Shown here: positions 1-6,492 of the stretch, piece by piece
How positions within the stretch are numbered: the first letter of the stretch is position 1
Layout: each line of letters begins with the position of its first letter
Assembly: GCA_003218915.1 (NCBI GenBank)
Contig: QHPC01000239.1
Span: forward strand, 1 to 36,920
Origin: Verrucomicrobiota bacterium
GTDB taxonomy: Bacteria > Verrucomicrobiota > Verrucomicrobiia > Chthoniobacterales > UBA10450
Direction of reading: 5' to 3'
Length of the DNA stretch: 36,920 nt
Program-made: the position numbers and the translations under genes
Notes under the pieces: model-generated
Databases searched by the model: none
What the model was told of the DNA's origin: nothing
What the model saw: only the letters and a program-made list of their open reading frames with translations

Positions 1-525
1 CGCCATTTTTTTGAGGTAGGTTTTACGGCGTTTTCGCGGGTCTCCATCTTTGCTCCCGCGCGGTCGCCCACCTTTGCCTTTGCGCCACGGCAACAAAAGC
101 TCGCGGAACGCTCTCTTGAATGTTTCGTCATCCTTCGGCAATTTCGCCGTCGGTGGCAGTTTATCCGGCCTTTTCCGTGTGAACAGTTCCTCGAATTCCC
201 TTTTCACTTCATCGAGCGTCGGCCCTTCCATCAGTTTCGAAACATCGAGACCGCGTTTGCAGCGCGCATGGCGGTGGCTCGCGGCGGAATACGACTCGAT
301 GATTCTCCGGCGACAAGCCGTTGGTTGAAACTTCGACGATCCGTCCCACGCATCGGCAACCAGCCGTAGGAACCGTGCCCGGCTGCGGGAATCGCCAGCG
401 GGCATAATGAAGCCAATACACGTCGGATGAAGCGCCGCCATGTAAGCCAGCCAACGCTCGGAGTTGCCTTCGAGTGCAACCATGTCGTCGGCAGAAATCC
501 TCCACTTCTTTGGTTTCGGCTTCAT
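1..525 (-). CDS. Unrecognised protein of an integrated element (3' end outside window)
   Basis: Reading the minus strand from ATG at 525 gives an open frame of 175 codons that runs off the window edge, so the gene is truncated here. The start overlaps the stop of the upstream gene as ATGA (522-525), a sign of translational coupling. The product begins MKPKPKKWRISADDMVALEG and is strongly basic towards the visible end, with a KGKGGRPRGSKDG segment followed by RKRRK. Such a lysine/arginine-rich tail suits nucleic-acid binding, but I recognise no domain. It is the third gene of a set that starts with a tyrosine integrase, so it probably belongs to the integrated element rather than to the core chromosome. 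The frame is certain; function is unknown. Confidence 0.6.
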   Translation of the reverse strand, partial: MKPKPKKWRISADDMVALEGNSERWLAYMAALHPTCIGFIMPAGDSRSRARFLRLVADAWDGSSKFQPTACRRRIIESYSAASHRHARCKRGLDVSKLMEGPTLDEVKREFEELFTRKRPDKLPPTAKLPKDDETFKRAFRELLLPWRKGKGGRPRGSKDGDPRKRRKTYLKKMA

Positions 526-1142
526 GTGCTCACCTCGGCGTGCAACGCCTGCACGTGCTCCGGTTGCATCCACAGCCACCCGAGGAACCGAATCCCGATC
601 ACGTCGTCTCCGTCATACAGGAATTGGAACACTCGCACCGCGATGTCTTTCGGCCCGGCTGCTGGTCGTTGCGACGGTTTGAACTGGAAGAACTGCGACG
701 CGTACGCCTCTTCCTCCGGTGCCAATTCAACCGCGTCTTCGTCCATGTCGGCGTTCGGCACAAAAGCCCAGTCGCCCGGTTCCACTGTTTCCGTGGCCTG
801 TTCAAGTTGCGCCGCCGCCAACGCCAAGTCCGCTCGGTCAACTCCGGCGTCCGCCGTGGCCGCGGCCAACACCGCAAGAGCGAAGATGAGGCTCGTGGCC
901 TTCATCGCCCGCAAGTAAGGGTGAAAATAACGCCGCCAAAGATTGCGCACGAATCGCTCCGGTTCTTTTTCCGGGTCGATATATTTTCCGCTCCAATCCA
1001 GTTCAATCGGAATGCTCGCAATTGCTCGCATCAAGTCCGAGTCGTTGCTGGCTGTGATCTTTTCGCCGTCGAAGATTATTTCGCCAGCCTTCACGTCTTC
1101 GGCGTCGCGGTTCAAAATGTAAATGTCCACCTTCAGTTTCAT
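522..1142 (-). CDS. Unrecognised 206-residue protein downstream of the integrase
   Basis: The ATG at 1142 overlaps the integrase stop as ATGA, and the gene's own stop overlaps the next start in the same way, so the three genes look like one coupled operon. The product opens with a compact, probably beta-rich module of about 80 residues (MKLKVDIYILNRDAEDVKAG, then FDGEKIT and PERFVRNLWRRYFHPYLRA). A hydrophobic stretch, MKATSLIFALAVLAAATADA, follows at about residues 80-99 and resembles a signal peptide, although it sits mid-protein. The rest is acidic (DMDEDAVELAPEEEAYA) and ends with a moderately hydrophobic tail. An internal start at that methionine would give a shorter secreted protein. 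I know no family that lets me assign a function. Confidence 0.6.
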   Translation of the reverse strand: MKLKVDIYILNRDAEDVKAGEIIFDGEKITASNDSDLMRAIASIPIELDWSGKYIDPEKEPERFVRNLWRRYFHPYLRAMKATSLIFALAVLAAATADAGVDRADLALAAAQLEQATETVEPGDWAFVPNADMDEDAVELAPEEEAYASQFFQFKPSQRPAAGPKDIAVRVFQFLYDGDDVIGIRFLGWLWMQPEHVQALHAEVST

Positions 1143-2178
1143 TTCGCAGTTATGCGCGGCAGCACCGCCACGGCATCGCGCAACGCCCCAAGATCATGGT
1201 GCGAATACCGCTGATGAATCGCCCTCGTCGTGTGGCCGGTAAGGAGCATCCGAACTTCTTCGGCGACGCCACAGTTCGCCAGAATCGACGTAAACGAATG
1301 ACGCAAGCTGTGAAACGAAAGCGCGTTCACGCTCTGTCCGGCCCCCGATTTGGCTCGGATCACGCGCTGCTCGATGTGCGCCCGGCCCATGATCTTGCCG
1401 AAATGCTTGGACAGGGCGCTCGCGTCGCGCTGCGCCAGTGATGGGAACACAAATGCCTCGTCGCTTTTCGGTGTCGGCAGGGAAAGCAGATAATCTTCCA
1501 GCGCCGGGTGAATGACTGTGAGGACAAAATTAAACCTGTCCAGTCGCCCGTGGCGGCCTTCACAAGTGCGCTGACCTGTTCGGGTGTGAAAACGTGCTTG
1601 CGGTGCGCTTTGTCCTTCAACTTCTCAATCGGGGCGCATGGATTGACGGAGATGTGGCCTTGCTTCCATGCGGAGTTGAACGCAGCCGATAAGATTTTGA
1701 TGTCCACATCGAGGGTTGCCGGGGCCAGTCCGAGCGAATGCCGATAATCGCGGAAGTCTGCGATGTCTTTGCTGGTGATCGCAGCGACGTTGAGTTTGGC
1801 GCGATGCCCAAGCAACTCGATGAATTCTCGCATCGTCTGCTCGTGTCGCCGGGCCGTCTTATCCGCACGCGTCTTGCGCTTGCCCTTCACGAAATGATCG
1901 AGCCATTCCGCGACGCTGAACACGCGCAGACCTTCGCCGTTCACGCTCTCCAACACTTCGCTCAGTAGCTCCCGCGTCCGCGCTTCGGTCAGCACTCCGC
2001 GCCGCGCTTCGTCCGCTGCACGCTGCAACTGCATGCACATCTGCATGGCCTTGCTCTTAGCGGTCAGCCCCGTCGATTTCTTGACTCTTCGACCGGTCGC
2101 ATCCGTGAAACACGCATACCAAAAAGGCGACCGCCGCTTTCCGTTTCGCTCCGCTTTGTCTCTGACCACACATGCCAT
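1139..2178 (-). pseudogene. Tyrosine recombinase/integrase, broken by an internal frame-breaking deletion
   Basis: The N-terminal frame (start ATG 2178, MACVVRDKAERNGKRRSPFW) contains an arm-type DNA-binding region and a SAM-like core-binding domain (FSVAEWLDHFVKGKRKTRAD; TLDVDIKILSAAFNSAWKQG; INPCAPIEKL-like VNPCAPIEKL), and is intact up to DWTGLIL. The expected next block, the start of the catalytic domain with the first catalytic arginine (TGAR/LRW box), is missing. Sequence resumes in another frame at about 1516 with VIHPALEDYLLSLPTPKSDE and continues to HSLRHSF and GHTTRAIHQRYSH, which carry the HxLRH box, the second histidine and the nucleophile tyrosine. I estimate about 40 codons lost at 1516-1525. 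As read, the enzyme cannot be made whole and lacks an essential arginine. An ATG at 2202 would add eight residues; 2178 fits better. It marks the integrase end of an element extending off the left edge. Confidence 0.85.
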
Positions 2179-2222
2179 AACTCCGAACGATAGTCGTAAC
2201 AAAACATGAAGTCAATGACGTT

Positions 2223-2285
2223 TCCGAAAGTTCTTTCACGAGGGAGAGATGGCTTTTGCCTCGTGATGGCGCGATCCGAAAGTTC
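2223..2285 (+). promoter_or_regulatory. Two direct repeats upstream of recA
   Basis: The 11-mer TCCGAAAGTTC occurs at 2223-2233 and again at 2275-2285, 52 bp apart, ending 75 bp before the recA start. The second copy lies in CGAAAGTTCG, which has dyad character (CGAA/TTCG). Position and repetition would suit a binding site for a DNA-damage regulator, but it does not match the known LexA boxes I can recall, so this is only a candidate. It could also be junction sequence of the neighbouring integrated element. Confidence 0.25.
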
Positions 2286-2360
2286 GCGGCCTTTTGATTT
2301 GTCTCCGAATCTTTTCTGCTTGGCGAATCGGCGAGCGCATCGTAGTTACAGTCTCTTGAT

Positions 2361-3398
2361 ATGGCGGCGAAAACCGAGCAAAAAACCAGCGAAGATAAGG
2401 TCACTGCGGCGCGGAATAAGAATCTTGATCTGGCGATTCAACAGATCGCAAAAGACTACGGTGAAGGGGCGATCATGCGCCTGGGTGACGAGAAAATTGT
2501 CGATATCGACGTCATTCCCACCGGCAATATCTTAATTGATCGTGCGCTCGGCGTCGGCGGATTCCCAAGAGGCCGAGTCGTCGAGGTGTTCGGCCCTGAG
2601 TCTTCCGGGAAAACGACTCTGACTTTGACGGTGATTGCGCAAGCGCAAAGGCGTGGTGGACTCGCGGCGTTTATTGACGTCGAACATGCGCTTGATCCTG
2701 CTTATGCAAAGCGGCTCGGCGTCGACCTGGATGATCTCCTGGTTTCTCAACCGAGTTCTGGCGAGGAAGCGCTGCGAATTTGTGAGACGCTGATACGCTC
2801 CAACGCGCTGGATGTGATTGTGGTGGATTCCGTGGCAGCGCTCGTTACCAGAGCCGAGCTCGAGGGCGAGATTGGCGACGCGACAGTTGGCGCACAAGCC
2901 CGCTTGATGAGCGCAGCACTGCGCAAACTCACCTCGCTCATTTCAAAAGCGCGAACCTGCTGCGTTTTCACCAACCAAATTCGCGAAAAGATTGGGGTCA
3001 TGTTCGGAAACCCGGAAACCACGCCTGGCGGCAAGGCGCTGAAATTCTATGCCAGCGTGCGCGTCGATATTCGGCGCATCGGCGCGATCAAACAGACCGA
3101 TGGCGTTGTTACAGGAAATCGGACTCGCATCAAAATTGTTAAGAACAAGGTTGCGCCGCCCTTCACGGAAGCGGAGTTCGATATCATGTACAACGAGGGA
3201 ATTTCATCGACTGGCGCGCTGCTCGATCTGGCATTGGAAAAACAAGTCATCGAAAAACGCGGATCCTGGATGAACTACAAAGGTACCCAATTGGCCCAGG
3301 GTCGAGACGCCGCTAAGGAAGTTTTGAAGAACGACAAGCAGCTCTACGAAGAAATTGAGTCGGCGGTCAAAGCCAGGCTCAACGAAGAAAAAGACTAG
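2361..3398 (+). CDS. recA: Recombinase RecA
   Basis: This is a full-length RecA of 345 residues. It forms the ATP-dependent filament on single-stranded DNA that drives homologous strand exchange and stimulates LexA-type self-cleavage. Visible landmarks are the N-terminal helix (about 1-35), Walker A GPESSGKT at 78-85, the catalytic glutamate region FIDVEHALD at 105-112, Walker B LDVIVVDS at 150-157, the L2 loop with [20 protein letters not shown] at 205-224, and the C-terminal domain with an acidic end. The ATG at 2361 gives [14 protein letters not shown] see no clear Shine-Dalgarno sequence upstream. No recX follows, although recA-recX-alaS is a common order elsewhere; alaS follows directly after 148 bp. 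Identity is not in doubt. Confidence 0.98.
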
Positions 3399-3546
3399 TT
3401 GGCACGGTTCCCTTGTTGCTGACGCGTGCCGGCATCTCATGCCAGTTAAGATGCGCTGGAAGTTGTCTGCATTTGCCCGTTTCTTGAGTCGCGGTTTCAG
3501 GTTTCCTGAAATTCGTGTTTATTCGTGCTGATTGGTAGTTAGAAGG

Positions 3547-6492
3547 ATGACCTCGGCACAAATCAGGCAATCATTTCTCGATTTCTTTCGCGAGAAGAAG
3601 CACACCATCGTGCCGTCGTCGTCACTGTTGCCGGACGCGCCGAATCTTCTTTTTACCAATGCGGGGATGAACCAGTTCGTGCCGATATTTCTTGGACAGC
3701 AGAAACCTTTATGGAAACCGGCGCGGGTGGCAGATACGCAAAAGTGCATTCGCGCCGGCGGTAAGCATAACGATCTCGAAGATGTCGGACTCGACACTTA
3801 TCACCACACGTTTTTCGAAATGCTGGGCAATTGGAGCTTTGGCGATTATTTCAAAAAGGAAGCGATCGAATGGGCTTGGGAATTACTGGTCGACCGCTGG
3901 AAATTTCCCGCCCAACGGCTTTATGCGACAGTTTACAAGCCCGGCCCGGGCGAGCCGAGTGAGTTTGACCGCGAAGCGTACGATCACTGGACGCATCTGT
4001 TTCGCGAAGCCGATCTCGATCCAAAGGTTCATGTTCTTAGTAGTGGCAAGGCCGACAATTTTTGGATGATGGGCGACACGGGCCCATGCGGCCCGTGCTC
4101 CGAAGTCCATGTCGATCTTACGCTGGACGGCGACACGCGCGGCGCGCTCGTGAACAAAAATGATCCGCGTTGTATCGAAATCTGGAACCTCGTTTTCATC
4201 CAGTTCAACGCGCAACCTGTAGCCGGGGGCGGTGATCCCGGCCGCATCGAGTATGTCCCCCTCGCTGCGCGTCACGTTGATACTGGAATGGGCTTCGAGC
4301 GCGTCACCGCCATTATTCAAGGCACAAAAAACCTCACGGATTTCTCAGGTACGATTTCGAGCTACGAGACGGACATTTTCCGCCCGATCTTCGACGAGCT
4401 GGAAAAACTGAGCGGAAAAAAATACGCGAGCACGCTGCCACTTGTAGGGCAAGCGCATCGCTTGCCGGGCGGGGGGGCGGCCAGCCGGAGCGGCCGCCCT
4501 ACAAGCGATCTCGATCAGGAGAAGATTGATATCGCCTTCCGCGTTATTGCCGATCACATCCGCGCGCTTTCGTTTGCAATCGCGGACGGAATCATTCCGT
4601 CGAATGAGGGACGCGGTTACGTTTTGCGTCGTATCCTTCGTCGTGCTGTTCGCTACGGCCGTATGCTCGATTTTCACGAGCCATTCTTCTTCAAACTTGT
4701 CGATGTCGTCGCAAAAACGATGGGCGACGTCTTTCCTGAACTCCGTACCAGACAAGAAACAATTAAGGATGTAATCCGGCGCGAAGAAGAAGCCTTTAAC
4801 AAAACGCTCGACCGCGGGATCGACGAGTTTGCGAACGCGATGGTCAATGCGATCAAAGATTACTCAACCACTGCTGGCTTGGGAGAGAAGATGGTGCTGA
4901 ACCTGCATCCTTTTCGCGTCCGACTGGAGAGTGGCCGAGTTGTGAAGACTGAGTCGACGAACGTCCATTCACTCGAAGGACCTTTGCCCTCGGTAGATAT
5001 AAACGTGGAGACCATTTCCGCCCTCGAATTGCAGGAGAAACTGGGTGGTAAACCAAAGTTACGGGATCAAGACGTCTTTGATTTATACGACACGTACGGT
5101 TTTCCGCTAGATCTAACGGAGCTGATGGCGCGCGAACGTGGATTCACTGTCGACATTCGCGGATTTGAACGATTGATGGAAGAACAGCGTGAGCGCGCCC
5201 GCAAGGGGCAGAAAAAAGAAAAGATCAGTGTTGAAGCAGGGGAACTCAAAGCCGAGCCAACGAAATTTCTTGGCTACGATTTTCTGGAGACCGAATCACT
5301 TGTCGAAACAGTTTTGCCTGGAACAAAACCGGAAGAACTTAACGTCGTCCTCGATCGAACGCCTTTTTACGCGGAGATGGGCGGACAAGTGGGAGATCGC
5401 GGGCTACTCCATGTGCCTGGGCATGACCGCACGGAAGTCGGCCAGTTGCGCGTTATTGATACGCAGAAGCGCGGCGACGTTTTTGTTCATCGGGCTGCAC
5501 TTGTGGAAGGCCGCGCGCCGGAACCGGGCGAAGCAGTGCGCGTTTCAGTAGACGTTGATCGCCGCCGCGCGATTCAAGGGCACCATACCGTGACGCATCT
5601 GCTTCACTGGGCATTGCACGAGGTGGTCTCGCGTGACGCGTCGCAAAAGGGAAGTTACGTCGGACCTGACAAACTGACGTTTGATTTTTCGGGCGCGCCA
5701 TTGACGAAACAACAAGTCCGAGATGTCGAAAAATTGGTGAACGAAAAGGTCACCGAGAATGCACCGGTCTCATGGACTGAAATTCCGTACGCGGACGCGA
5801 GGAAGCGAACCGACATCATCCAATTCTTCGGAGAGAAATACGGCGACGTCGTCCGGGTTTTGCAGATTGGCGGAGCGCCCCGTGCGCTGAACGGTTACTC
5901 GATGGAACTTTGTGGTGGGACGCACGTGAGATCGACGGGCGATATTGGGCCATTTCGAATCGTGAAGGAAGAGGCGATTGCAGCTGGCATTCGGCGGATT
6001 GAAGCCGTTGCAGGCGACGCTGCACGCAACTGGGCGAATCAGGAAGCAGCGCGTCAACAGGAGAAATTTGAAGCTTTGGCGCGCAAGAAATCTGATATCG
6101 CGCCACTGCCTGCTTTTAAGAACGACGCGGCTACTTCTGAAGTGCTGCAACAAATCGATGCGCGGACTTCGCATCTTGAAAAAGTCGAAATCGAAGTTCG
6201 CGAATGGGAAAAGCAAAGTGCTAAGACGGCCGAAGCGGAATTGAGAAGCCGGGCCGCTCAAATAGCGAGTCAACTGGTGGCATCGCATGCAGGAGAAAAT
6301 TTTTGCGTCGCCGAAGTGCAAGACGGGGACGGGAAACTGCTGCAGGCCGTTGCTGATACATTGAAGTCGAAATTCAACGGTCCGATTGTAGACGGCAAAG
6401 GCGGCGGGCGGCCTGAAAATGCTCAGGGCGCCGGCAAGGATTCGAGCAAGATCGCGGAGGCGCTGGCAAAAGCGCGAGAGCTTTTGAGTTAA
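3547..6492 (+). CDS. alaS: Alanine--tRNA ligase with in-frame repeat insertion
   Basis: This class II synthetase charges tRNA-Ala and proofreads mischarged Ser/Gly. I place the start at ATG 3547 (MTSAQIRQSFLDFFREKKH), where family members begin; the open frame extends five codons further up to a TTG. At 981 residues it is longer than the usual 870-900. The catalytic core comes first, the editing domain has HxxxH at 680-684 (HTVTH) and the CGGTH zinc motif at 789-793, and the C-Ala domain ends the protein. Two stretches explain the extra length. Residues 299-320 (LVGQAHRLP...SGRPTS) are exactly the translation of a 65-bp palindromic repeat. Residues about 439-507 form another insertion before FDLYDTYGFP that has no repeat character. 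Catalytic and editing motifs remain, so the enzyme is probably active. Confidence 0.97.
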   Translation: MTSAQIRQSFLDFFREKKHTIVPSSSLLPDAPNLLFTNAGMNQFVPIFLGQQKPLWKPARVADTQKCIRAGGKHNDLEDVGLDTYHHTFFEMLGNWSFGDYFKKEAIEWAWELLVDRWKFPAQRLYATVYKPGPGEPSEFDREAYDHWTHLFREADLDPKVHVLSSGKADNFWMMGDTGPCGPCSEVHVDLTLDGDTRGALVNKNDPRCIEIWNLVFIQFNAQPVAGGGDPGRIEYVPLAARHVDTGMGFERVTAIIQGTKNLTDFSGTISSYETDIFRPIFDELEKLSGKKYASTLPLVGQAHRLPGGGAASRSGRPTSDLDQEKIDIAFRVIADHIRALSFAIADGIIPSNEGRGYVLRRILRRAVRYGRMLDFHEPFFFKLVDVVAKTMGDVFPELRTRQETIKDVIRREEEAFNKTLDRGIDEFANAMVNAIKDYSTTAGLGEKMVLNLHPFRVRLESGRVVKTESTNVHSLEGPLPSVDINVETISALELQEKLGGKPKLRDQDVFDLYDTYGFPLDLTELMARERGFTVDIRGFERLMEEQRERARKGQKKEKISVEAGELKAEPTKFLGYDFLETESLVETVLPGTKPEELNVVLDRTPFYAEMGGQVGDRGLLHVPGHDRTEVGQLRVIDTQKRGDVFVHRAALVEGRAPEPGEAVRVSVDVDRRRAIQGHHTVTHLLHWALHEVVSRDASQKGSYVGPDKLTFDFSGAPLTKQQVRDVEKLVNEKVTENAPVSWTEIPYADARKRTDIIQFFGEKYGDVVRVLQIGGAPRALNGYSMELCGGTHVRSTGDIGPFRIVKEEAIAAGIRRIEAVAGDAARNWANQEAARQQEKFEALARKKSDIAPLPAFKNDAATSEVLQQIDARTSHLEKVEIEVREWEKQSAKTAEAELRSRAAQIASQLVASHAGENFCVAEVQDGDGKLLQAVADTLKSKFNGPIVDGKGGGRPENAQGAGKDSSKIAEALAKARELLS
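4441..4505. repeat. Cloverleaf-like palindromic element (family B) inside alaS
   Basis: Perfect 10-bp terminal inverted repeats, CTTGTAGGGC (4441-4450) and GCCCTACAAG (4496-4505), enclose two internal hairpins: GCAAGCG/CGCTTGC (4450-4466) and a GC-rich GGCGGCC/GGCCGCC pair (within 4475-4499). The fold is a three-way junction. The same architecture recurs between genes at 24327-24384 and elsewhere in the window. Here it is read through in frame as about 22 residues of alanyl-tRNA synthetase. Confidence 0.85.

Follow-up and report, generated by a model that had tools for sequence, protein, structure and literature searches.

A split hsp20-recA terminator beside a decayed tyrosine integrase gene in a Verrucomicrobiota draft genome

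Prophages and phage satellites of the tyrosine-integrase type carry the integrase at the edge of the element by the attachment core, pack their genes tightly and leave the host gene at the site preserved. The lambda-type core site consists of two inverted 6-bp arms around a 7-bp spacer, and 7 bp is the size of the lambda-type overlap. Within the genus of the bacterium studied here, related integrases lie at the edges of elements beside hairpin-forming targets. These are tRNA genes (beside tRNA-Gln at L007; near tRNA-Gly at L011; tRNA-Thr at L014) or what look like tRNA fragments (L009, L010, L013, L016, L017 and L022). The closest intact integrases, about 70% identical to the one described below, come from two genomes of this genus (L007 and L008). 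At the integrase locus of L008 in genome G006, a wider sequence (L058) holds a remnant of the C-terminal part of a terminase large subunit just downstream of the integrase (5464-5841). A more distant relative (30% identity) on a viral contig is followed by further genes, which we take to encode an HTH protein and RecT. No description of a terminator-targeted tyrosine integrase surfaced in a partial, word-matched literature search, a result that does not by itself prove novelty.

The window, i.e., the whole stretch of 36,920 nt that was analyzed, is the complete contig C212 of a draft assembly (2.9 Mb, 383 contigs, 85% complete). Its left end (Table 1) resembles the systems above in having an integrase at an element edge, by an attachment core and next to a preserved host gene, with tightly packed genes. 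It differs from tyrosine-integrase prophages and satellites in an integrase without the catalytic Arg and Lys regions and in a target that is a terminator instead of a tRNA gene; it differs from the tRNA-associated elements of the genus in the same hsp20-recA terminator target and in the lack of TACCTATGARAA on the integrase side. Judged by the terminase remnant in a related element, the most likely class is that of prophages or phage satellites in decay; the kind would then be known and the attachment site unusual, and of the two a phage origin is presumed. The same genome holds a second tyrosine integrase at the end of contig C117 (L063:3-752), followed by an HTH-like gene and a 939-aa protein that is presumably DUF927-like. 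A search of window positions 1-3600 against Rfam gave no match.

Table 1. Features at the left end of the window and its junction with the recA region.
Feature	Position	Strand	Remarks
Gene 3	1..525, open at contig end	-	at least 175 aa, very basic, orphan; start lies within the stop of gene 2
Gene 2, second part	522..905	-	signal-peptide-like segment from in-frame Met80 (905-903) and a domain with the end ...VRVFQ...FLGWLWM...ALH
Gene 2, first part	897..1142	-	small module of about 82 aa with the end ...PERFVRNLWRRYFHPYLRAMKA
Tyrosine integrase pseudogene	1139..2178	-	ATG at 2178; frameshifting internal deletion
Integrase deletion site	1524..1542	-	about 118 nt missing, out of frame
Putative attachment-site arm, integrase side	2223..2275	+	direct and inverted repeats; function presumed
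Attachment core CCGAAAGTTCGCG	2276..2288	+	common to C190:11391-11403; inside hairpin arms CGCGAW...TTCGCG
3' half of split hsp20 intrinsic terminator	2282..2296	+	GTTCGCGGCC-TTTT, contiguous with recA upstream region
recA	2361..3398	+	conserved chromosomal neighbour, marks host side

Alignment of the regions upstream of recA showed that in the genus this gene usually follows a pair of hsp20 genes, with a GC-rich hairpin and its T-run in between. The hairpin is found in most members with a readable region, in many of them directly after hsp20, and it is within this terminator hairpin that the homology of the window to its relatives begins. When the intact locus of genome G029 (L032:1-1520, hsp20-hsp20-terminator-recA) was used to search the genome of the window, it was returned in two parts from different contigs, positions 1-1429 from C190 and positions 1410-1520 from the window, with the overlap at the core. 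The hsp20 pair on C190, the only one found in this genome, likewise runs up to CCGAAAGTTCGCG; these 13 bp are identical on the two contigs, and beyond them the sequences diverge immediately. Since the hsp20 side on C190 and the recA side in the window share these 13 bp, we infer that an insertion split the hairpin, i.e., that integration took place into it. When the flanks are joined (GGCCGCGAACCGAAAGTTCGCGGCC-TTTT), they form a perfect terminator with a folding energy of -27.3 kcal/mol and with inverted 6-bp arms CGCGAA and TTCGCG around the 7-bp spacer CCGAAAG, and the putative element site (GGCGCGATCCGAAAGTTCGCGCGC) likewise folds as a hairpin; the exact crossover point would lie within the terminator hairpin. 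Next to the core there are two copies of the 11-mer TCCGAAAGTTC at a distance of 52 bp (2223-2233 and 2275-2285), and the inverted repeat CACGAGG/CCTCGTG (2237-2243/2259-2265) lies between the two copies. Empty sites in relatives and the core at both junctions, which are on two contigs, form the pattern of site-specific integration. The sequence-only reading had recognized here the edge of an integrated element, a view upheld by the empty sites, the split terminator and the second junction; the C190 copy of the core is also a candidate for the other attachment site, for which that reading had suggested a search.

The idea that the window junction holds a remnant of tRNA-Gln was rejected, as only about 9 bp resemble the end of the tRNA. 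Direct-repeat searches for the attachment sites of the elements in G006 and G025 gave nothing clear. In two close relatives, G006 (L029) and G016 (L031), the hsp20 pair upstream of recA has been lost and a membrane-protein gene now adjoins a partial hairpin, which marks the locus as prone to rearrangement.

Of the three genes, the integrase is the sole one that is named by Pfam and PHROGs, and its two halves lie in different frames. The core-binding domain (PF13102, 8.6e-11) and the C-terminal catalytic domain (PF00589, 2.9e-8) that characterize tyrosine recombinases are both present, on either side of the frameshift, and the catalytic Arg-I and Lys of the family are missing. Compared with L008 at the DNA level, 16 + 102 = 118 nt are absent out of frame at about 1542/1524, a deletion known from one assembly. 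It takes out the stretches around GQRL and KTG, which contain the catalytic Arg and Lys and are kept in L007 and L008; HxxR (HSLRH), the second His (GHT) and the nucleophile Tyr (YSHH) are still present in the downstream fragment. Read from these residues, the gene is a pseudogene of the family that encodes no active enzyme, and its product could not catalyse recombination. The deletion bears out the earlier description of the integrase as damaged, and the accompanying suggestion that the element may be fixed is strengthened to likely immobility, with an element that would no longer excise.

Gene 2 is open over 206 codons, and its halves match two separate proteins. For residues 1-82, the same genome has a similar but decayed copy on another contig (C201:630-770), with a stop at YLRAMKARET*. 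The rest, residues 80-206, can be aligned from its signal peptide on with the secreted proteins P0001 and P0002 of genomes G048 and G165, with which gene 2 from Met80 shares the signal-peptide region, VEL..., RPA..P, VRVF, GW and ALH. The latter are stand-alone genes, whereas the copy in the window is shorter than they are and continues in frame from a different upstream module; no integrase ORF was found in the roughly 3.2 kb examined at the G048 and G165 loci. Because of this composite match, gene 2 gives the appearance of two unrelated genes fused in frame and not of one two-module protein. The mid-protein signal-like segment that had been pointed out before is present, and it is thus best read as the N-terminus of the second protein at Met80. 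For the first part, a collinear identity of 31% over 85 aa was seen with a module in the IMG/VR contigs L085 and L087 that lies at the N-terminus of a head-morphogenesis protein, encoded beside a portal gene, and has the same end, PE.F...L...Y..PYLRA. As the match was found by searching that very motif and is not significant outside it (p = 0.07), homology with the portal-side phage module is only suggested. Viral contig L076 was rejected as a relative, being a short chance match on a contig with unrelated genes, and the phylum matches L078-L080 were weak and not convincing.

Neither gene 2 nor gene 3 gave a significant family match in Pfam, PHROGs, NCBIfam or PADLOC, or a match in a tblastn search of phages. 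Relatives of gene 3 were found neither in 35 genomes of the genus, 213 of the order and 388 of the phylum nor in scans of viral, phage and GTDB contigs, and its comparison with the gene after the integrase in L007 was negative. Structure models of both proteins without alignments were too poor for a structure search (pLDDT 42 for gene 3 with AlphaFold).

These observations bear on whether integrase, gene 2 and gene 3 could be a functional, translationally coupled operon under selection, with accessory factors or a secreted effector among its products. The ORF coordinates confirm two ATGA overlaps on the minus strand (1142-1139 between integrase and gene 2, 525-522 between gene 2 and gene 3), as well as the earlier remark that gene 3 runs off the window, the edge of which is the contig end. 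Codon usage, scored by training on the other genes of the window, is good for gene 2 (+0.30 bits/codon), lower for the integrase halves intN (+0.15) and intC (+0.11) and weak for gene 3 (+0.06), and it rejects the long antisense ORFs of the plus strand (-0.10 to -0.22). The overlaps and the open, well-scoring gene 2 would fit such an operon, which is nevertheless very improbable with an integrase that lacks its catalytic Arg and Lys and a gene 2 that matches two separate proteins. An ATGA overlap is in itself unremarkable, because a co-directional pair in the window (7556../8446..) has one as well. As to the idea that integrases are rarely coupled so tightly, an unrelated ORF lies 2-3 nt downstream of the integrase in L007 and L008, so that tight packing after this integrase is normal and the partner is not conserved. 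The genomes searched did not contain the order integrase-gene 2-gene 3, and in none of them was gene 2 or gene 3 seen together with an integrase. With different partners in the nearest relatives, an orphan gene 3 and a C-terminal half of gene 2 that occurs elsewhere without an integrase, the notable coupled module envisaged by the sequence-only reading is not supported, and its three-gene set was not recovered in other genomes.

A single decaying phage-derived element inserted in the hsp20-recA terminator is the probable explanation of the locus, and the junctions in the window and on C190 would then belong to one element. The sequence of C190 runs on for about 980 nt past the core, with about 240 nt of unknown sequence that include TACCTATGARAA (L062:909-920), followed by the C-terminal half of a gene that we take to be PRC-barrel-like from its sequence (L062:1147-1478; G000:C190:11646-11977). 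The gene is longer and intact in G016, G022, G025 and G024, and a search of the present draft for the missing N-terminal half found nothing. In several other, tRNA-associated elements of the genus (L010, L013, L014, L016, L022 and L024), TACCTATGARAA adjoins the integrase on the side of the attachment region, possibly as a shared arm or excisionase site, which makes it less simple to take C190 for the opposite end of this element. The motif on the wrong side and the broken chromosomal gene so close to the core would instead suit two related elements, perhaps in tandem, or one element and a rearrangement with the PRC-barrel locus, so that the ends on C190 and in the window would be different insertions at the same terminator. 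We regard this as unlikely, as both junctions share the 13-bp core at the same terminator position, just as a single insertion predicts, and one element with decayed content is simpler. The middle of the element is also absent from the fragmented draft, and both junctions lie near contig ends. Together with the short, symmetric hairpin, this could hint at an assembly or binning artefact, in which the assembler broke the sequence at a repeated hairpin and joined it wrongly, without any insertion. An artefact is, however, very improbable, given that the window runs unbroken from the integrase, a mobile-element gene with relatives of about 70% identity in the genus, to recA, that C190 extends well past the core and that empty sites exist in many relatives.

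According to the single-element explanation, recombination by a tyrosine integrase would have brought a phage-derived element into the chromosome, at the intrinsic terminator that separates the hsp20 pair from recA and the hairpin of which may have supplied the inverted arms and spacer that such an integrase needs. Recombination with an element site of the same spacer and similar arms (CGCGAT/TTCGCG) would have split the terminator in such a way that the hsp20 side retained a hairpin and lost the T-run, and the recA side retained the 3' arm and the T-run. Decay would have followed, with the loss of about 118 nt of the integrase, including the catalytic Arg and Lys, with the fusion of two genes, one for a small and one for a secreted protein, into gene 2, and with the joining of the hsp20-side end to the C-terminal half of the PRC-barrel gene.

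The locus cautions that apparent coupling by ATGA, like a signal peptide within a protein, can stem from decay and gene fusion in an old element and does not require a functional operon. It is mostly ordinary apart from its landing site, the hsp20-recA terminator hairpin, which is the part of most interest. It provides a concrete pair of empty and filled sites for terminator-targeted insertion next to recA, with a proposed 7-bp overlap that is amenable to testing. It is a speculative and quite unlikely idea that an integrase lineage of this genus moved from tRNA stem-loops to terminator hairpins, with an element site that mimics the terminator stem. If it were true, terminator targeting would keep a hairpin at both junctions, and an insertion between the end of an operon and an essential gene would cost the host little.
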